Shown piece after piece: positions 33,327 to 43,184 of a stretch of DNA of 64,000 nt (position 1 is its first letter; each line of letters opens with the position of its first letter). The notes beneath the pieces were generated by a model, which worked only from the letters and a program-made list of their open reading frames with translations, had not been told where the DNA came from and made no database searches. Source of the DNA: Bradymonas sediminis (GTDB lineage Bacteria > Myxococcota_A > Bradymonadia > Bradymonadales > Bradymonadaceae); NCBI RefSeq assembly GCF_003258315.1, contig NZ_CP030032.1, positions 286,001 to 350,000 of the forward strand. Direction: 5' to 3'. Position numbers and translations under genes: made by a program.

Positions 33327-35204
33327 ATGCATTTTATCACCCGCTGGACCCTTGTGTCCCTGGTCGCCGTTTCCCTGGCGGGCACGAGCTGTACAAGCAT
33401 CATTGACGCTGTCCGCCCCGACAAGCGTAATCTCTCGGGCGAGCTCGGCGACGCCGCTTGCACGCCTGAGCAACTCAGCGCCCCAAACGGCACCCAACGC
33501 TTCGTGGTCGAGTGGAATGACGGCGACCGTGCCTCTCTCGAAGACGAGATGCGCGACGGGGTCGCGCTGGTCAAATTTAGCTGCGATGGAATCCAATTGC
33601 TGAGAAGCTGCGCGGTCCCGGGGACCTACGGGTACCGGGCGAGTAACTCCAAAAAGGCACGGGTTCTCCAATTTGAGGATGCGCTGTCTGCGTCGGCGAA
33701 CTTTTCGAGTTCCCTGCTGGGCTCAGGCCTTGGCGGCGACATCGACCAGGGTCGCTCGCTTGACCTGGCGTATGTCATGGTCGGCTCCGAGACCACGCCC
33801 GTCAAAGACGTCACCTACGACCAGCTCGACCGCGCGGCGTGCAAGGAGGCCACGCACTTTGTCTATCAGACCCAGGTGGGCGCCTTCGCGCTTAAGGCCA
33901 GCGAGCAGGGGGAGGTCGTCTCGGCCAGCAGCATTTTGGGGCTCGGGGGCACCGACTCCGAGACGTCAAGCAGCCGTCAGTCGCGCGTCGCCGACGGCGA
34001 TGCGGCGGCCTGCGCGGGCTCGACGCCCGACGATATCGGCCCTCCCCAGGACTGCGGCGCGAAGATGCGCGTGACCATCTTGCCGCTCATCGAGGGGAAG
34101 ATCGACGCCTATTCGCCCGAAGCCGCCGAGCTCGCCGCCACGACGCCCCCGACTTGCCCCGCCGGCACTGTCTATGACCGGGGATATTGCGTCTTGCCGA
34201 CCCAGATCCAGCCTAATCTGTGCGAGCACGGCGATGTCGACGGCTGCATCGATGCGTGCCAAAAACAAAACCTGGAGAGCTGCAATCGCATGGCCCGGGC
34301 GTTCGCCAAGAGTATTCCAGACGGGCTGGACTATTTCGCGCATAACGACGCCAGCGTGAGTACATACGGCGAAGAGGCCGTCGCCCGCTATCGGACCATC
34401 AAGTACACTACGCTCCCACTGCTTGAGCAGGCTTGCGAGGAGCGCGATATGGCCGACGCCTGTTGGATGGCCGGTATCATCTATACGCTGAGCGACCGCG
34501 AGATTCTCGCGCAGGATGACTCGCCAGATGCGGTTGTCGACTACGGAAAGCGCACATTTCACCTGATGAGCAGCGCCTGCAAATTCGGCAACGTCGCCAG
34601 CTGTCAGGCGCTGCACCAGCAGACCCATTCATTGATGCGCACGATGGAGGCGAGGCTGCCGCGCGAGGATGAAATCAGCGACGACTCCGAGCGGGTGTTC
34701 TTGCCCGACCTGGTGGCCGACGCCGAGAAAGCCCTGCAGGAGAGTTGCTATGCGGGCACCCTGCCGGTTTGTATGTCGCTGGCCGAGGCCGCGCTTGAGG
34801 GGCACAAGTCGATCGTTGACATCGAGAAGGCCAGCTTTGCCCTGGAGAAAGCCTGCCTGGGCGGCATCGGCGAGGCCTGCTTCTGGAGCGCGCTTGCCTT
34901 TGCCTCCGAGGACGCCCAGACCTGCGAGAATTTGCTCAAGACCACCACCACGCCCAATAAGGTGTCGCCAAATGACGACCCCAATCGCGAGGACTACGAG
35001 TATCTGTACCACCCGCGCGACCCCCAGCAATTCAACGAGGATTACCAGTCCACCTGCGAATTTATCACGAAGGAGGACTTTCAGAAAAAACTCGCCCCCT
35101 ACGCCCCCGAGCGCGCCAAGGCCTTGGCCCGCCAGGCCTGCCATATCTCGGGCGGCTATCTGACCGAGAACGCCTGCGAGATGTCGGGGCTGCTGAGCCC
35201 CTGA
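33327..35204 (+). CDS. Lipoprotein of unknown function, paralogue 2 with Sel1-like cysteine repeats
   Basis: Protein of 625 residues. Residues 1-260 repeat the whole of the preceding lipoprotein (QRFVVEWNDGDRASLEDEM, LLRSCAVPGTYGYRASNS, ATHFVYQTQVGAFALKASE, CGAKMRVTILPL). The rest is a cysteine-rich helical-repeat region with motifs such as CEHGDVDGCIDAC, CEERDMADACWMAG and CLGGIGEACFWSA, as in Sel1-like repeats with paired cysteines. The N-terminus is a signal peptide ending AGTSC, a less regular lipobox. The repeats probably mediate protein binding. A GGAG site precedes the ATG, and the transcript ends at 35285. Confidence 0.82.
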   Translation: MHFITRWTLVSLVAVSLAGTSCTSIIDAVRPDKRNLSGELGDAACTPEQLSAPNGTQRFVVEWNDGDRASLEDEMRDGVALVKFSCDGIQLLRSCAVPGTYGYRASNSKKARVLQFEDALSASANFSSSLLGSGLGGDIDQGRSLDLAYVMVGSETTPVKDVTYDQLDRAACKEATHFVYQTQVGAFALKASEQGEVVSASSILGLGGTDSETSSSRQSRVADGDAAACAGSTPDDIGPPQDCGAKMRVTILPLIEGKIDAYSPEAAELAATTPPTCPAGTVYDRGYCVLPTQIQPNLCEHGDVDGCIDACQKQNLESCNRMARAFAKSIPDGLDYFAHNDASVSTYGEEAVARYRTIKYTTLPLLEQACEERDMADACWMAGIIYTLSDREILAQDDSPDAVVDYGKRTFHLMSSACKFGNVASCQALHQQTHSLMRTMEARLPREDEISDDSERVFLPDLVADAEKALQESCYAGTLPVCMSLAEAALEGHKSIVDIEKASFALEKACLGGIGEACFWSALAFASEDAQTCENLLKTTTTPNKVSPNDDPNREDYEYLYHPRDPQQFNEDYQSTCEFITKEDFQKKLAPYAPERAKALARQACHISGGYLTENACEMSGLLSP

Positions 35205-35248: not shown

Positions 35249-35285
35249 AGCCCCGACCAAGCTTCTGCTTGGCCGGGGCTTTTTG
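35249..35285 (+). terminator. Terminator after the lipoprotein pair
   Basis: AGCCCCG-A-CCAAGC (35249-35262) pairs with GCTTGG-C-CGGGGCT (35267-35280) around TTCT, followed by TTTT to 35284. Confidence 0.85.
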
Positions 35286-35982: not shown

Positions 35983-37908
35983 ATGCAAAAACCTGCGTCA
36001 GATCGGTTGGATCCCCAAACTCCGGGTATTGATGAGGTCGATTCAATTCGCCAGCAATTGAGCAGCGCGTGGTGCAATGTCGAGCTATGTCGGCGCCTGG
36101 TTAGCGCTCTGCGCGACCGTGGGGATGCCCGACAAGCCGTCGAGATCGCATCGAAGGTCGCAGAGTCGTGTTTGGAACAGGGGCGGTTGGGGGGCGCGAT
36201 TGAGGCGATGGAGATGGTGCTAGAGTTGGCGCCTGAGCGGGTCGATGTGCATATGGAGGTGGGGCGAACACACCTGCAATTGGGATATTTTGACAAGGCG
36301 GCGGCCTCGTTTGGGCGCGCGTTTGATTGTGCGAGTGCTCAAGACGATGCAGCAAAAGCAGAAGAAGCCCTGGGGTTTTTGGGGCGGGTACAGAAGGCCA
36401 GCGTCGACTTTCGCCTGCGCGAGGCGAAGTGGCATATCTGCAACGGCGAGAGCCAGGCCGCGATGGCGTCGATGCGAGAGTGCGTGCAAATTTTCGAAGA
36501 TGACCCCCGCTCACATGACTTCTCCCGGGTTGGGGCGACGGTCGTGGCGCTGAGCGCTTTGGACGCCGAGGCCGGCGAGCAGTTGGGGGTATATTTGGCG
36601 CAGCGTGCGAATGCGCTTGTCTCTGCCGGGCTCTTCGAGGCGGCGATCCAGGCGCTGTGTTGGGCCATCAAGGCGGCGCCGAAGACCCAGAAGACGTACC
36701 GACACATTGCGGAACTGCTCACCGCCAAGGGATATGGGCAGGAAGTGATTGAAGTCATTGAGTTTGTCGGGCGAAAACTGGGTGGAGGGGATGCCGTGAA
36801 AGAACTAATAGCGCTGAGCGAAGAGTTATCGGAGCGCCAGGTGCTCCATCCTGGCGACGGCGCGCTGGAGACGAAATCGGGCGTGGACAGCGCTGATGGG
36901 TGGCCTTTTCGCCTGATTGTGGAGGAGTTCGAGGAGCTCGAGGAGATCGACCTTGACGGCCAGGGGCCTTTTATTGAGTGGGAGCCTTCGGGGCTTGGCG
37001 ATGAGATAACCTCGCCGAGCCCGGTGTCGCGAGCGTTTGCTCGAGAGGTCGCGTCCGCGCCGGTAGGGTCGCTCACCGGCGCGCCCGATTTTGGGGGCGA
37101 ATGTGCCGCGCGAAATCTCCTGAATCTGCTGGCGCGACTCAGCGCGATCGAGGCGCTGAGCTGTGTGAGGTTTTTTGCTGAAGGGGAGGCCGAACCTCGC
37201 GCCCAGATGATGGTGAAGAACGGAGAGGTGCTTCTGGGCTGCCGTGTTCAGGGGCGCTCGTTGGCGGACCTTTTCGAGGCTGGTCTTGTAGACGCCGGTG
37301 GCGTTGACGTCGCCAAAATATGCCGCCGATGGGACGAAAGCTTCACCGATGTCAGCCGCGAGGATGGCCGAGAGGGGAGTGTCGCGGGCGTCCCCGACCA
37401 TCGGGAGACCTATATATATGGGGTCGGCACCGCGCACGCACTGGCGAGGTTAGCCGAGTTGGGACGCGAGGTGCATTTGAGCGTAAGCGTTGAAGCGATG
37501 TCTGGGGATAGATCGGTGCAGAGATTCTCCACGGCCATGTTGCTATTGGAAGCTTCGGCGCTCCTGTGTCCCCACACCGACACGAGTGAGCGCTTGCTTG
37601 AGCATGATTTCGGCGAGGAGCGCTGGGTATTGCAGCGGTCGGCGGGGTCAGATTGCTACCTTCCCCTCGGTTACAGCGGGTCCGCGGTGAGTTTCGATGA
37701 ATTGCTCGAGGCCAGCGTATTGGTTGGAGAGCTCGAGGCTTCAACGCGGCCATTGAATCAAAAGGGGGGCGGCGTTGGCATTAGCTTTTTGTCAAAGCAA
37801 GCCGCGTGGGGGGCCGTTTGGGACGGGGAAATTGTATTGCTGGCGCGGTGTGACAATCAAGATATTGGGCGATTAGTGTCAACCATGCGCTCGCTGACCA
37901 GGGAGTGA
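35983..37908 (+). CDS. TPR protein with DUF4388-like and possible roadblock-like C-terminal parts
   Basis: Cytoplasmic protein of 641 residues, starting at the ATG at 35983 (a TTG two codons earlier is possible). Residues 20-270 are TPR-like helices (SALRDRGDARQAVEIASKV, LELAPERVDVHMEVGRTHLQ, GYFDKAAASFGRAF, GLFEAAIQALCWAIKAAPKT). An acidic linker follows (EEFEELEEIDLDG). Residues 370-430 (LLNLLARLSAIEALSCVRFF, KNGEVLLGCRVQGRSLADLF) resemble the DUF4388/PATAN fold seen in myxobacterial and cyanobacterial signalling proteins. The last 50 residues (GISFLSKQAAWGAVWDG, LLARCDNQDIGRLVSTM) look roadblock/LC7-like. It is followed after four bases by the ABC-phosphatase fusion, so the two are co-expressed. 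A scaffold or regulator role is inferred. Confidence 0.75.
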   Translation: MQKPASDRLDPQTPGIDEVDSIRQQLSSAWCNVELCRRLVSALRDRGDARQAVEIASKVAESCLEQGRLGGAIEAMEMVLELAPERVDVHMEVGRTHLQLGYFDKAAASFGRAFDCASAQDDAAKAEEALGFLGRVQKASVDFRLREAKWHICNGESQAAMASMRECVQIFEDDPRSHDFSRVGATVVALSALDAEAGEQLGVYLAQRANALVSAGLFEAAIQALCWAIKAAPKTQKTYRHIAELLTAKGYGQEVIEVIEFVGRKLGGGDAVKELIALSEELSERQVLHPGDGALETKSGVDSADGWPFRLIVEEFEELEEIDLDGQGPFIEWEPSGLGDEITSPSPVSRAFAREVASAPVGSLTGAPDFGGECAARNLLNLLARLSAIEALSCVRFFAEGEAEPRAQMMVKNGEVLLGCRVQGRSLADLFEAGLVDAGGVDVAKICRRWDESFTDVSREDGREGSVAGVPDHRETYIYGVGTAHALARLAELGREVHLSVSVEAMSGDRSVQRFSTAMLLLEASALLCPHTDTSERLLEHDFGEERWVLQRSAGSDCYLPLGYSGSAVSFDELLEASVLVGELEASTRPLNQKGGGVGISFLSKQAAWGAVWDGEIVLLARCDNQDIGRLVSTMRSLTRE

Positions 37909-37912
37909 TTCG

Positions 37913-39316
37913 ATGGATTCCCTGGTTCTTATGCTCAACTCACTGACGGTCTGGATTGGGGAGCGCCTGATTCTATCGGGCGTCGATCTCGCGCTGGAGC
38001 GTGGGAAATGCCTGGTGCTGATGGGACCCGGCGGCGGCGGTAAGTCGACGCTGATGCGCACCATATGTGGGGTAGATCGCGAGAGTCATCTAATTCAAGT
38101 CGGCGGCCAGGCGCACTATCTTGGGGCGTCGATTCTTCGCGACGCCGTCGCGGCGCGTCCGGCGTTTGTCGAGCAAAAACTATCGATGATGAGCGCGACC
38201 GCCTTTGAGCTGTTGTCGTCCCGCTACCCCGAGCGCGAAAGATATACGCGCGAAGACCTGCGCAGGCGACTTCGCCATGAGCTAGACGCCCTGGGGGAGG
38301 GCGCTCTAGCGCGTCATTTTGACACCGAACTTCTGGCCTTGTCCCCATGCGAGCGCCGACTCTTGACGTTGGTCGCCGCGGTACTTCCGGACCCCGAACT
38401 TCTCTGCGCCGATGAGCCGATGGCCAGGCTTTCGGAAGAGGATAGCCAGCGAATCTTGCGGTTTTTGACGACCCAAAAGCAAAAGCGCAGCCTATTTCTG
38501 ACGACCCATAATCAGCGGTATGCGCGCCAAATTGCGGACTACACAGCGATCCTTGCCGGGGGGACGATTCACGAATGCACGCTCACTGAGTCGTTCTTTC
38601 GCGCGCCCTATACCCGGGTCGCCCAGGAGTTCATTCGAAGTGGCAGTTGCACGGTGGATTCTCCCCAGGCCGATCCACGGCAATTATCGCCGGCCTATTT
38701 GGCCCGGCAGAGCCCCTGGGCGAGCAAGGGAACCCCGGCATTGCAGGAGCGCCAAACACGCGCGGCTGCGCGGCCCGCGCCCGGCAATGTGCCGAGTGAG
38801 AGCCGCGGACCCTATGGTTTCCATTGGATGCGGCCCGGTCGGTTGGCCGGGACACCCATGCCCGGCATCGTGCGCCCGATTGAGGAGGACCTCGGCTCGC
38901 TCAAGCGCATGAATATCACCGCGCTGGTGAGTTTGACCGAGATTCCGCTCGATTCGGAGACGCTCAAGCCCTACGCAATCGACCTCATTCACTTCCCCAT
39001 TGTCGACATGCATCCACCGCAGTTGCAGGCCGCGGGCGCGTTTTGCGCCCGTATTCAGCGGCGCCTGGCTCAGGGCGACGTGATTGCTTTTCACTGTCGC
39101 GCCGGCATCGGGCGCACAGGGACGATGCTGGCGGCGTTTGAGGTTTTCGAAGGCCTTGGCGCTGAGGATGCGTTCTCCCGGGCCCGCCAAATTCATCCGC
39201 GTTGGATTCAATCCGAACTGCAACACCAATTTCTCAACAAATTCGAGCGTTGGCTCGAATCAGCCGTCGCCCGCGACGGCTCCATCCAGCGGAAAAGTTC
39301 TGCATTACACACGTGA
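37913..39316 (+). CDS. ABC-type ATPase fused to a dual-specificity protein phosphatase
   Basis: A 467-residue two-domain protein. Residues 1-240 form an ABC ATPase: Walker A GPGGGGKST (38-46), Q88, a degenerate signature LSPCE (143-147) in place of LSGGQ, Walker B LLCADEP (163-169) and switch histidine H199. There are no membrane segments. Residues about 300-455 are a cysteine phosphatase with P-loop HCRAGIGRTG (394-403) and a likely general acid D365 (FPIVDMHPP). The linker (245-300) is basic and proline-rich. ABC ATPase plus tyrosine or dual-specificity phosphatase in one chain is an arrangement I do not know. It is downstream of the TPR gene and upstream of a small roadblock-like gene. The target phosphoprotein is unknown. 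Confidence 0.85.
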   Translation: MDSLVLMLNSLTVWIGERLILSGVDLALERGKCLVLMGPGGGGKSTLMRTICGVDRESHLIQVGGQAHYLGASILRDAVAARPAFVEQKLSMMSATAFELLSSRYPERERYTREDLRRRLRHELDALGEGALARHFDTELLALSPCERRLLTLVAAVLPDPELLCADEPMARLSEEDSQRILRFLTTQKQKRSLFLTTHNQRYARQIADYTAILAGGTIHECTLTESFFRAPYTRVAQEFIRSGSCTVDSPQADPRQLSPAYLARQSPWASKGTPALQERQTRAAARPAPGNVPSESRGPYGFHWMRPGRLAGTPMPGIVRPIEEDLGSLKRMNITALVSLTEIPLDSETLKPYAIDLIHFPIVDMHPPQLQAAGAFCARIQRRLAQGDVIAFHCRAGIGRTGTMLAAFEVFEGLGAEDAFSRARQIHPRWIQSELQHQFLNKFERWLESAVARDGSIQRKSSALHT

Positions 39317-39361
39317 TGCGTTCCTGCTTTTTCCCATGACCATAACTAGTAAGGAGTTGTA

Positions 39362-39766
39362 ATGTCTCTCGATTCAGCAATTCAATCCGCCATTTCGGAT
39401 ATCCCGGAGTGTGTAGCCGGCGGCTATGTCGACATGTCCACGGGCATGCTCATTGGCGTCAAAACCGTAGAGTCTCACCCTCAGGAGATTCTTGATTTCG
39501 TCGCGGCGGCCACCTCCGATCTCTTCCAGGGGCGAAACGTGGTCACGATTGAGAAGATGTTCCGCAAGAACCGTGGTGTCAGCGAAGACGGGCATCACTA
39601 TTTTCAGGAGATTTTGGTCTTCAGCGACAATTTATTGCACATCTTTCAACGCTGTAAAAACTATCCCGAGCATGCGGTGGTTTGGGTCTGCAACAAATCC
39701 GCAAATATCGGTATGGCGCTCACCAAGGCGCGGATGAACCTGAGCAAGGTTGAAAGCGCCCTGTAA
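39362..39766 (+). CDS. Small roadblock/LC7-like protein
   Basis: Cytoplasmic protein of 134 residues, ATG after AAGGAG. The pattern IPECVAGGYVDMSTGMLIGVKTVESHPQ (three adjacent stretches around residues 14-41), followed by helix, strand and helix, fits the roadblock/LC7 fold of MglB-type proteins, which bind small GTPases. The central FQEILVFSDNLLHIFQR also fits. No GTPase gene is present nearby. Closely follows the ABC-phosphatase gene. Confidence 0.7.
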   Translation: MSLDSAIQSAISDIPECVAGGYVDMSTGMLIGVKTVESHPQEILDFVAAATSDLFQGRNVVTIEKMFRKNRGVSEDGHHYFQEILVFSDNLLHIFQRCKNYPEHAVVWVCNKSANIGMALTKARMNLSKVESAL

Positions 39767-39890
39767 TTTCAATTGGAGCTGTCGCCGCTTCGATGCTCGT
39801 GCACCAGGCTCAGCCTGTGCGGATGCGTCGAGGCGGCGATAAATATGGCGACCAAGCATGGGCCCGAGAGGGCTCAAGAAGGCTGAAACG

Positions 39891-41435
39891 ATGAATAAAG
39901 ACAGGCCCACCGTTGAGTTTGAGGGATTCCGTTATCAAGTTCGCGATGGGGAGTCGCTCCTTGATAGTCTGATCCGTGGCGGAGCTGAGGTTGATTTTTC
40001 GTGTCGCCACGGCGTCTGCCAGACATGTATGATGCGTGTGCTGTCAGGCGAGGTAAATCTGGAGGCGACAAAAGCCCTGCGTCAAGAGTTGGTCGACAGC
40101 GGGCATTTCCTTCCCTGTCGGGCACACCCGAAGGCGGACCTTACGGTTGGCCTCGCCGACTACTCTCAGCTCACGCTGGAGGCGATCGTGTCCGAGAAGG
40201 TCGCGCTTTCGCCAAGCGTGGTTCGGCTCTCGATCGAGCCCGCGGTCAACTTGGACTGGACCCCAGGGCAGTATATTAACCTCATCAACCCTGAAGGGAT
40301 TTCGAGGAATTACTCCATCGCGAGTATCGCCGAGGAGGACTATTTCGTGCACCTCCATGTCAAACGCGTCGACAACGGGGTGGTCAGTGGTTGGATTCAC
40401 GATGCGTTAGAGGTAGGCGACTTCATTAAGATTCAGGGGCCAATGGGCGAGTGTGTCTATGACCTGGATAACCCGGAGCGCACCCTCGTCTTGCTCGCCA
40501 CGGGGACGGGGCTTGCGCCGCTATATGGCGTCCTGCGCGACGCCCTCCGGCACGGGCATCGCGGGCCGATCCTTCTATACCACGGCGTGGCGACCCCGGA
40601 TGAGCTTTATCTAAACGCGGAGCTAGTGGCGCTGGCGCGCGCCCATGCGAACCTGCGCTATTTTCCGTGCGTCGGCGAGCAAAGCGTCACACAGGCGGCC
40701 TTCGACTCGCCGTCGTTTTCACAGGACGTCGCGGAGCACGCGCTTTATCTATGCGGAAACCCGGGGATGGTGTACCACGCGCGCTATCTCGCGATTGGAG
40801 CCGGATTTCGACGCGCTCATATCCTGGCCGATCCCTTCATAAGTGACGAACCCTATTGGCCCCAGGATGGTCAAAAGCTCCAGTCGCTGCCGCCCGAGCC
40901 CGAGCTCTGGGCCGCTCTTGAACAGGGACCGAAGTTGCGGCGTATCCTGGAAGATGTCTATGACCAAATCTATGCCGACCCCCGATTGAGCCCCTTTTTT
41001 CAGCACGCGACAAAAGAGCGGGCGATCTCGAAGCAATATGAGTTTTTAGCGGCTATTTTCCATGCGGAGAGCTCTTATTTTGGTTTGAATCCATTCAACG
41101 CGCACCATTGGATGATCTTTAGCGATGAAATTTTTGATCATCGAGAGGATCTTTTTGAAAATACTCTGCGAAAGCATGGGGTGCAGGAGCGCTTCATCCG
41201 GCGTTGGATGAGTATTCAGGAGTTGTTTCGCCGCGAAATGGTCAAGAGCAGCGAGCGCGGCATGATTATGGGTGGCGAGGAGCATCTAAAGTCGGGCTAT
41301 AGCCAGGAGGTCTTGGGCGTCGGCTCGATCTGTGACGGCTGTCAGCGCGAATTGCCCGCCGGCAGCGCCGGGTTGATGCACCAACGAACCGGGCATTTTT
41401 ATTGCGTACATTGTAACCCGCACGCGGTCGGCTGA
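39891..41435 (+). CDS. Ferredoxin - FAD/NAD reductase - truncated haemoglobin - zinc ribbon fusion
   Basis: Protein of 514 residues, ATG at 39891. Residues 1-92 are a plant-type 2Fe-2S ferredoxin with C38, C43, C46 and C76. Residues 95-320 are a ferredoxin-NAD(P) reductase module with FAD motif RNYS (139-142), nucleotide motif GTGLAP (205-210) and YLCGNPGM (286-293). Residues 345-455 match a truncated haemoglobin (LEDVYDQIYADPRLSPFF, then AHHWMIFSDEIFDHREDLF with likely haem histidine H405 or H406). Residues 478-514 carry CxxC...CxxC (C481, C484, C505, C508), a likely zinc ribbon. The module set suggests electron transfer from NAD(P)H through FAD and iron-sulphur to haem, as in NO dioxygenase or an oxygen/NO sensor; the exact reaction is inference. 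Confidence 0.88.
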   Translation: MNKDRPTVEFEGFRYQVRDGESLLDSLIRGGAEVDFSCRHGVCQTCMMRVLSGEVNLEATKALRQELVDSGHFLPCRAHPKADLTVGLADYSQLTLEAIVSEKVALSPSVVRLSIEPAVNLDWTPGQYINLINPEGISRNYSIASIAEEDYFVHLHVKRVDNGVVSGWIHDALEVGDFIKIQGPMGECVYDLDNPERTLVLLATGTGLAPLYGVLRDALRHGHRGPILLYHGVATPDELYLNAELVALARAHANLRYFPCVGEQSVTQAAFDSPSFSQDVAEHALYLCGNPGMVYHARYLAIGAGFRRAHILADPFISDEPYWPQDGQKLQSLPPEPELWAALEQGPKLRRILEDVYDQIYADPRLSPFFQHATKERAISKQYEFLAAIFHAESSYFGLNPFNAHHWMIFSDEIFDHREDLFENTLRKHGVQERFIRRWMSIQELFRREMVKSSERGMIMGGEEHLKSGYSQEVLGVGSICDGCQRELPAGSAGLMHQRTGHFYCVHCNPHAVG

Positions 41436-41474: not shown

Positions 41475-43184
41475 TCAGAAGCGGTACACCGCCACAAATT
41501 GCTCGACCTGCTCGGACGCCGAGTCGCGCGCGGGGCTCACCGATTCGAAGCGCGCGCAGTTGGCGCTTACGTGCAATTGGGCGTCGCGGCCGATGTAGTT
41601 GTCCAGGTCCTGATAATCGTAGGGATGCTGCGACGGGGGCATCTTCCAAGCGCGCATTCTGGGGTATCGGACCGTCGCTGCGGGGAGGCCGAAGACGATG
41701 CCCTGGTCGTGGTCGTCGGGGTATTTGGCCAGGTGGGTGTCGTGGCGCACCGAGAGCTTGGGCGTCCCGTTATCGTTATAGAGCACCAGGGTGGTGTCGG
41801 TCTGGAGCGTCGTGTAGCGCGTGGTGACGCCGCCGGACCAGGTCAGATAGCGGATGCTATTGGGCTGCGGCGCGGACCAGGGCCCGCAGCCGTTAGCGTC
41901 GCAGGTGCGACTGCGCTCCAAAACGGTCTGGGAGTCCAGCACGACGCTCGAGCTTGAGTTGAGCCTGGCGAGCGCGTCGGCCGCGCTCCAGGCGGCGCCA
42001 GAGCAGCTCTGCGGGTCGAACCAGTCGTCGGGGTCGACCGTGTCCTGGCAGGCGCCGGCGCTGCAGGTCTGCGACGCGGAGCAGGCGACCGGCGCGGACC
42101 AATCCAAACACCCCGACGCCTGCATTTCACAGGTCTTCAGCGCCGATTCGCCGTCGCAAACCGTGCTCCCCTGAGTGCAGGCGTCGGTGCAACTCGGGAG
42201 CGAAAAACCAACGCCCGGGCTGGGGTCGGCGAGCTGGAAATCGCTGAAATTATCGTGGGTATTGGTCATATTCTCGTCGCGCGACAGGCTCTGGCCGGCG
42301 GGCGCGTCCACCGCCGGCTCGCCCAGCCCGGCAGCCACCTCGGTGGCGCTAAACTCCCCGTAGGCCAGCGCGTCGATGACCTGCTCGCCGAAGCGCAATT
42401 GGACGCTGTCGGGGCCGTTTTGCAGGTCGGCTTTGTTGTCGAGTTGGTCGGCCAGGGCTAGCCACTCGGCGGGGGCGCTGGGCTGCATGACCACGAAGAA
42501 GCCCTCGCTATTGGTCTGGCCGATGAGGTCGATCGTGGCGTATTCGCCGCCACCATTTCCGTTGACCGCGACCAGCCGCAGGCCGTCTACCGCGGTGTTC
42601 GCGGGGCCGTAGACCTCGATAAAGCTCTCTTTGTCGGCGCCCGGCGCGTCGTAATAAACCTCGCTGATGAGGAAATTATCGGGGGCTTTGCACGCGCCGT
42701 TTTCGCAGCCAAAGGCGCAGGCGGTGTCGACGAAATCGTAGGTGCAGGCGGCGTCTTCGCAGAGCCCCGGGGCGCTGAAGCTGCGGAGTGTGTCGGCGTC
42801 GGCGCAGGTGTCGGCGGGCGGGGTGTCGCAGGCCAGGTCGCACACAGGCTCTTGCGTGTCGGGCGTCCCGGTATCACTGGCGTCCTCGGGGTCGGTGGCA
42901 TCGGTTGCGTCGGTTGCGTCAGCATCGCTGGCGTCGGTAGCGTCGGTAGCATCGCCAACATTGCTGACATCGTCGGGCGTCCCGGCATCGTCGGGCGCCC
43001 CTGCATCCTCGTCTATATGCGCATCCGGGGCCCCTGCGTCGTCAGCCTGGTGCGCGTCAGACAAGGCATCGCTGGCATCCGGCGCGGAGCCGGTATCTCG
43101 CCCCTCATCCGATGGCGCATCGTCGCTGCAGGCGAGCGCGAATAAGAGGACCGAGAGAATAAAACAATATCGAAATATGCGCAT
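41475..43184 (-). CDS. Lamin-tail-domain lipoprotein
   Basis: Lipoprotein of 569 residues with signal peptide and lipobox LLFALACSD (cysteine about residue 19). A long linker of Asp, Ala, Thr and Ser follows (runs such as DATDATDASDADATDATDAT, about residues 25-110). Then come cysteine-rich short repeats (CDLACDTPPADTCADA). A lamin-tail domain is at about 165-290 (FLISEVYYDAPGADKESFIEVYG in two blocks, FFVVMQPSAP, GDSVQLRFG-type strand). The C-terminal half has more cysteine-rich motifs. Probably displayed on the cell surface; function unknown. Confidence 0.82.
   Translation of the reverse strand: MRIFRYCFILSVLLFALACSDDAPSDEGRDTGSAPDASDALSDAHQADDAGAPDAHIDEDAGAPDDAGTPDDVSNVGDATDATDASDADATDATDATDPEDASDTGTPDTQEPVCDLACDTPPADTCADADTLRSFSAPGLCEDAACTYDFVDTACAFGCENGACKAPDNFLISEVYYDAPGADKESFIEVYGPANTAVDGLRLVAVNGNGGGEYATIDLIGQTNSEGFFVVMQPSAPAEWLALADQLDNKADLQNGPDSVQLRFGEQVIDALAYGEFSATEVAAGLGEPAVDAPAGQSLSRDENMTNTHDNFSDFQLADPSPGVGFSLPSCTDACTQGSTVCDGESALKTCEMQASGCLDWSAPVACSASQTCSAGACQDTVDPDDWFDPQSCSGAAWSAADALARLNSSSSVVLDSQTVLERSRTCDANGCGPWSAPQPNSIRYLTWSGGVTTRYTTLQTDTTLVLYNDNGTPKLSVRHDTHLAKYPDDHDQGIVFGLPAATVRYPRMRAWKMPPSQHPYDYQDLDNYIGRDAQLHVSANCARFESVSPARDSASEQVEQFVAVYRF

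Follow-up and report, generated by a model that had tools for sequence, protein, structure and literature searches.

Four adjacent genes of Bradymonas sediminis, located at positions 35983 to 41435 of the window (the analyzed stretch of 64,000 nucleotides, representing positions 286,001 to 350,000 of contig NZ_CP030032.1), encode a TPR protein, an ABC-type ATPase fused to a phosphatase, a protein predicted to adopt the roadblock fold (referred to as RB) and a ferredoxin-reductase-globin protein. With a probability of roughly 0.5, this unit is proposed to represent, in its local form, a widespread and soluble signalling module of the GTPase-roadblock type, in which the phosphatase would act on a partner and the globin would provide an oxygen or nitric oxide (NO) input or function as an enzyme. 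A preliminary description had regarded the four genes as a candidate new signalling system. A recurrent module composed of signalling-type parts was indeed recovered from other genomes, and the globin gene was found to lie outside its conserved core.

Conservation of the gene set

Based on a scan using one genome per species, 105 RB matches were obtained and 80 of these were kept, resulting in 79 distinct RB loci whose gene content was read by profile searches over stop-to-stop frames. These loci originate from Myxococcota, Rhodobacteraceae, Comamonadaceae, Methylophilaceae and Lysobacterales, the proteobacterial members comprising the alpha-, beta- and gamma-classes. Genes for the phosphatase and the ATPase were observed in 68 and 69 of the 79 loci, respectively, usually encoding one protein, and the phosphatase gene is located at most 400 bases 5' of RB on the same strand in 56 loci. 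Furthermore, ABC-phosphatase and RB co-occur within a set of 77 genomes of relatives (Fisher p 1.8e-12). In five of these relatives (G008, G010, G014, G017 and G019), the TPR, ABC-phosphatase and RB genes adjoin in the same order as in B. sediminis, and homologues of the TPR protein gene were found directly 5' of the ABC-phosphatase gene in six relatives. The position of the TPR protein gene is occupied by a different protein in G013, G021 and G024, the one of G024 resembling the C-terminal region of the TPR protein. The conserved core is an X protein with a predicted roadblock-type tail, followed by the ABC-phosphatase and RB. Homologues of all four genes occur elsewhere at identities of 24–89% with the order kept, which excludes chance open reading frames, and inspection of the gene order in other genomes did not reveal a scattering of the genes in all relatives.

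Predicted functions of the core proteins

The RB gene (39362-39766, + strand, 134 aa, with AAGGAG just 5' of the start) matched no family in Pfam or NCBIfam. Moreover, the roadblock family Robl_LC7 (PF03259) gave no match among 14 RB members scanned, one of which showed a weak match to MAPKK1_Int. The AlphaFold2 model of RB (predicted local distance difference test score, pLDDT, of 84) features the roadblock fold in the order alpha-bb-alpha-bbb-alpha, and its Foldseek matches, as listed, are of the roadblock type throughout, including the Streptomyces structure 3kye as the best one (E 3.4e-7), MglC, MglB, LAMTOR/MP1 and asgard roadblocks. RB is 61–89% identical to 13 relatives, with approximately 50 invariant positions and a mean column identity of 80% (n=14 relatives). 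The label 'roadblock-like' given to this gene in the preliminary description was right, and the modelled fold, not a sequence family, identifies RB as a roadblock/LC7-fold protein. In locus L092 (6725-7939), an RB-like domain with 33% identity to RB is fused to REC and DUF4388 domains directly 5' of a second RB gene; this fusion indicates that RB can serve as output domain of two-component signalling.

The first gene of the unit encodes the X protein (35983-37908, + strand, 641 aa), a TPR protein as deduced from matches to PF13428 (9.6e-9) and PF07719 (1.5e-8). For its C-terminal region of 277 aa, termed XC (37075..37905), an AlphaFold2 model with a pLDDT of 86.8 and a predicted template modelling score of 0.86 was obtained, in which the final ~96 aa (37618-37905) are arranged as strand-strand-helix-three strands-helix. 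The top Foldseek matches of XC are Roadblock/LC7, LAMTOR and the Rag C-terminal domain (best E 1.6e-3, probability 1.00). Profile comparison (hhalign) of XC and of C11, a protein encoded in some RB loci, with RB and Robl_LC7 gave no significant link, and the roadblock assignment of XC accordingly derives from the fold model. The TPR protein may thus carry at its C-terminus a second, previously unreported roadblock-like domain, suggested by fold matches of weak E-value and missed in the preliminary description. Taken together, the modelled folds of RB and XC suggest that two proteins of the unit are probably of the roadblock type. Four Myxococcales loci (L089, L090, L093 and L120) also encode an XC-like region, which shares its reading frame with the ATPase. 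A second RB copy in relative G010 (L058:6343-10140) is preceded by a short protein composed of TPR and XC and followed by a hybrid protein with PAS, histidine kinase and receiver parts.

The second gene (37913-39316, + strand, 467 aa) encodes the ABC-phosphatase. Its ATPase domain (37913-38647; PF00005, ABC_tran, 2e-14) has retained the Walker A and B motifs as well as the Q- and H-loops, and the LSGGQ signature is lost in 14 of 14 aligned members. This loss and the absence of transmembrane stretches from all four unit proteins indicate that the domain is not a transporter ATPase, and the assignment as an ABC transporter was rejected. The phosphatase domain (38786-39268) belongs to the dual-specificity/protein tyrosine phosphatases (DSP/PTP) and matches PF22785 (DSP phosphatase Tc-R-P, 3.9e-18) and PF22784 (4e-15), the closest Pfam family bearing a name that originates from polymorphic toxin systems. 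Its active-site loop HCRAGIGRTG (39092..39121) contains the HCx5R motif, and the form HCxAGxGRTG prevails by a wide margin among 80 aligned family members. H394, C395, R401 and the general-acid Asp365 are each at least 90% conserved in the family. The catalytic residues are intact.

Probable GTPase partners, the ferredoxin-globin protein and unit borders

GTPase genes were found in 24 of the 79 RB loci. Dynamin-family GTPases are encoded near RB in 14 alphaproteobacterial loci, in some of them within tight operons, and a Ras-like GTPase together with a Robl_LC7 protein is encoded in 10 beta- and gammaproteobacterial loci. The most complete version of the module was observed in Rhodobacteraceae as a compact, one-strand operon (L126:7186-15400) with the order PTP-RB-C11-ABC-dynamin-dynamin-Fer2/FNR/globin. 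In L144, one of the beta- and gammaproteobacterial loci with a Ras-like GTPase, the genes for Robl_LC7, ABC-phosphatase, RB, Fer2-FNR-globin, a protein of 396 aa and the GTPase follow each other. The B. sediminis genome encodes one pair of Robl_LC7 protein and Ras-like GTPase away from the unit (C1:520696-521759), comprising the Robl_LC7 gene at C1:520696 and, just after it, a gene at C1:521361 that the Ras-like GTPase profile matches weakly; no other such pair was found. Dynamin-like genes are located at 4.35 and 4.37 Mb of this genome, none of them adjoining the unit.

The preliminary description had proposed a kinase as the missing partner. On a Ruegeria plasmid (NZ_CP065362, L182:4901-18399), four dynamins, RB and C11 are followed by a Ser/Thr kinase, an FHA protein, a PP2C phosphatase and two substrate-binding-type proteins, and the same gene order was observed on a Ruegeria conchae plasmid (L184). 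Among the loci read, the combination of kinase, FHA and PP2C occurs only in these two, and relatives of the Ruegeria-type kinase, with identities of 25–29%, were found near RB in only 4 of the 79 loci, so that a Ser/Thr kinase was rejected as general partner. Likely, the missing partner is a GTPase, either a dynamin pair or a Ras-like protein, and not primarily a kinase.

The fourth gene (39891-41435, + strand, 514 aa; an alternative in-frame ATG at 39858 is possible) encodes, from N- to C-terminus, a ferredoxin domain, an FAD/NAD reductase, a truncated globin and a CxxC tail, represented by PF00111, PF00970, PF00175 and PF01152 (Fer2, FAD_binding_6 and NAD_binding_1 with values of approximately 1e-12 to 1e-13, Bac_globin with 2.7e-5). 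As deduced from the alignment, the 2Fe-2S ferredoxin domain (39906..40166) contains C38, C43, C46 and C76, all of which are conserved in at least 90% of 28 aligned sequences. Comparison of the globin family profile with PDB assigned the globin domain (40893..41324) to the group I truncated haemoglobins (best E 1.1e-12); PF01152 was detected in 23 of 23 family members, and the proximal His H405 and the distal Tyr Y357 are invariant. In the profile matches, the alignment with HbN of M. tuberculosis is equal in length (query 6-102, chain 16-112), and Y357, mostly Q382, and H405 align with HbN residues 33, 58 and 81, which we take to form the NO dioxygenase pocket. The C-terminal CxxC...CxxC pair (C481/C484/C505/C508, 41331..41414), a probable zinc ribbon, is present in all 24 complete homologues among the 26 examined. 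Several homologues are devoid of the reductase, yet have kept Fer2, globin and the CxxC tail. The unit does not encode a canonical flavohaemoglobin, since the N-terminal 3/3 globin PF00042 is without match in the genome and PF01152 was found instead. The domain set named in the preliminary description for the unit (TPR, ABC-type ATPase with phosphatase, ferredoxin/reductase/globin) agrees with the Pfam matches. Both fusions said there not to have been met before turned out to be recurrent architectures, that of ATPase and phosphatase being the usual form in its family and that of the globin protein occurring with and without the reductase.

The globin gene is located close to RB in 20 of the 79 loci, which are dispersed over the RB tree and belong to Myxococcota, Rhodobacteraceae, Hydrogenophaga, Methylotenera, Lysobacterales and another gammaproteobacterium. 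On this tree, which is derived from one short gene and contains many weak forks, the globin-nearby state changes 15 times. Since the loci differ in length, some of the absences represent contig ends only. The globin gene stands next to the core in G000, G008 and G017 as well as in many distant loci, and it is encoded elsewhere in G009, G010, G021 and G027. Counted by genome and uncorrected for kinship, seven of eight globin-positive relatives are RB-positive (p 1e-6). Within one alphaproteobacterial family of 121 genomes, globin was detected in three, all being RB-positive, and RB in five overall (p 8e-4 after removal of one globin genome that had been chosen as centre). Moreover, 11 of 29 genomes picked for an RB locus without globin encode a close globin relative elsewhere. 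Proximity and co-occurrence at the genome level, together with its location elsewhere or absence in other genomes, characterize the globin gene as a strong but optional associate of RB, i.e., a frequent and not an obligate member of the module. In Caldimonas tepidiphila (L177:7699-12604), a Fer2-globin gene was found near two Ras-like GTPase genes, away from the RB locus of this species.

Regarding the layout of the unit, re-examination of the coordinates in the window confirmed four genes on the + strand separated by gaps of 4, 45 and 124 bases. The left border described before also holds: the intrinsic terminator (35249..35285, + strand) of the upstream gene (33327-35204) was recovered by RNA folding as a hairpin at 35249-35280 with -25.7 kcal/mol and z = -4.9, followed by TTTTT. 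The same applies to the right border, which is formed by a convergent gene (41475-43184, - strand). Promoter scanning of the unit detected no sigma-70 promoters above chance, and no match to Rfam families was obtained, so that an RNA element was rejected. The upstream gene encodes a cysteine-rich, lipoprotein-like protein of 625 aa without Pfam match, and the convergent gene encodes a probable lipoprotein with repeats rich in Asp, Ala, Gly and Thr and a weak match to the Lamin Tail Domain below the Pfam cut-off.

Candidate mechanism, rival explanations and known systems

The composition of the module is established from the loci, and its mode of action may be envisaged as follows. RB and the predicted roadblock domain of the TPR protein would form a platform for reading or setting the nucleotide state of a GTPase. 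The fused phosphatase would be gated as the non-transporter ABC domain binds nucleotide, and it would dephosphorylate a partner that the TPR protein holds. The globin, fed by NADH, would convert oxygen or NO to a redox or ligand signal or, alternatively, could take part in this response as a dioxygenase that removes NO. It is possible, albeit doubtful, that the module even represents a categorically new switch, in which paired roadblock proteins would couple an ATP-gated phosphatase to a dynamin or Ras-like GTPase with the ferredoxin-globin protein as built-in oxygen/NO or redox input, making it a prokaryotic counterpart of a Ragulator-type platform by which the state of gases or redox would be read.

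Several observations weigh against a GTPase-roadblock signalling module with a globin input. Neither the window nor those close relatives that were read show a GTPase gene next to the unit, and the core of Comamonas and Delftia is accompanied by neither a GTPase nor a globin gene, the latter being absent altogether from the genomes of these genera that were searched. Conversely, G007, a fragmented genome of 87% completeness, is globin-positive without RB. Comparison of RB with neighbouring Robl_LC7 proteins reached an hhalign probability of only 24%, and the fold matches of XC are consistent but weak by E-value. Interaction of the proteins, regulation of a GTPase and phosphatase activity are all predictions from sequences and models. 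Finally, the globin protein has every component that an autonomous NO dioxygenase requires, and it does not have to signal.

This last point leads to the strongest rival, which we nevertheless consider unlikely, namely that the fourth gene encodes an NO dioxygenase only, a flavohaemoglobin analogue co-regulated with a functionally separate roadblock/phosphatase core. The complete electron-transfer path from NADH via FAD and 2Fe-2S to haem within one chain, the residues aligned with the presumed pocket of HbN and the location of the globin gene elsewhere in 11 of the 29 genomes checked are in line with it. Repeated proximity of globin and RB in distant taxa and their co-occurrence by genome speak against it, as do the globin genes inside the dynamin/RB operons L126 and L102; moreover, the many versions that keep Fer2, globin and CxxC without a reductase would be odd for a plain detoxifier. 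Less probable is a phosphorylation switch without GTPase, as put forward in the preliminary description, in which RB and the TPR protein would serve as scaffold for a kinase whose gene lies elsewhere, with the phosphatase resetting it. The scarcity of Ruegeria-related kinases compared to GTPases (4 vs 24 of the 79 loci) and the role of roadblock domains as classic GTPase partners (PMC4316618, PMC6785124) argue against such a switch, for which the conserved phosphatase active site, the kinase, FHA and PP2C genes of the Ruegeria plasmids, the RB-REC-DUF4388 fusion and the PAS histidine kinase beside RB in L058 could be claimed.

A function in biological conflict, i.e., as an anti-phage system, appears very improbable. 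The dynamin partners match the Leo models of PADLOC weakly (LeoA 1.1e-11, LeoBC 2.1e-9), the ATPase weakly matches mad3, and the name of the closest phosphatase family refers to toxin systems. The RB, TPR and globin proteins are without PADLOC match, however, a full system set was not recovered, no effector domain was found, and the mean column identity of RB is not arms-race-like. Since the PADLOC matches were weak only, a known defence system was rejected. Least credible of all is the reading that unrelated housekeeping genes adjoin each other by chance, for which only the 124-base gap before the globin gene and its non-adjacent location in several relatives could be cited. It is contradicted by a gene neighbourhood that is conserved in Myxococcota and in several classes of proteobacteria, and it is refuted for genes 1 to 3 by synteny and for gene 4 by recurrence on the RB tree and genome co-occurrence.

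Roadblock proteins are known to regulate GTPases (PMC6785124; PMC4316618). In the polarity switch of Myxococcus xanthus, the roadblock protein MglB acts as both GTPase-activating protein and guanine nucleotide exchange factor for the Ras-like GTPase MglA (PMC6785124). The module shares with this system a roadblock-fold protein, and its beta- and gammaproteobacterial loci add a Ras-like GTPase and Robl_LC7 beside RB; it differs in that RB matches no Robl_LC7 model, the phosphatase-ATPase fusion and the globin are added, and, in the window, the unit has no GTPase gene beside it. Streptomyces conservons, consisting of a histidine kinase, the roadblock protein CvnB, a conserved protein and the GTPase CvnD (PMC4316618), are likewise repeated multi-gene sets around a roadblock protein and a GTPase. 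Their gene set does not correspond to the content of the unit, and the module, occurring in different phyla, has no histidine kinase as fixed member and features the ABC-phosphatase and globin instead. Both RB and XC show fold matches to subunits of LAMTOR and to Rag C-terminal domains, which recall the eukaryotic Rag GTPase-Ragulator (LAMTOR) complex, where several roadblock domains serve as GTPase platform, whereas sequence similarity was not detected, no membrane anchor was found in the module and the partners are prokaryotic. DO-GTPase conflict systems are described without mention of roadblock, globin or dynamin proteins (PMC7159879).

Like the flavohaemoglobin Hmp, the globin protein combines globin and FAD/NAD reductase in one chain. 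Unlike Hmp with its N-terminal 3/3 globin, it carries a truncated 2/2 globin on the C-terminal side, and its family adds a 2Fe-2S domain and the CxxC tail and often misses the reductase. The GlbN operon of Legionella, cited in PMC3820574, likewise pairs a truncated globin with a ferredoxin reductase and is suggested to specify an NO dioxygenase; there, two separate genes are under NsrR control and no roadblock or phosphatase protein is mentioned, whereas the B. sediminis protein is a single chain. Parts of the module resemble MglA/MglB, conservons and flavohaemoglobins, and defining features of each of these systems are absent. Keyword searches of open-access papers for roadblock with ABC ATPase and phosphatase, bacterial dynamin with roadblock, fusions of truncated globin and ferredoxin reductase, and roadblock with globin retrieved no description of the module, and the ferredoxin-globin architecture was not found in the open-access globin literature. 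The module is likely novel, a statement that is provisional since subscription journals lie outside this coverage.

The results define a family of predicted roadblock fold that is unknown to Pfam and NCBIfam and is tied to a phosphatase-ATPase fusion and two classes of GTPases, and they connect this family to the ferredoxin-globin architecture. If the proposed reading as a GTPase-roadblock module is true, it would provide a regulatory context for the dynamins of Rhodobacteraceae and a tractable bacterial case of haem or redox input to GTPase signalling. The core of the module is present in the culturable species Delftia acidovorans and Comamonas testosteroni.

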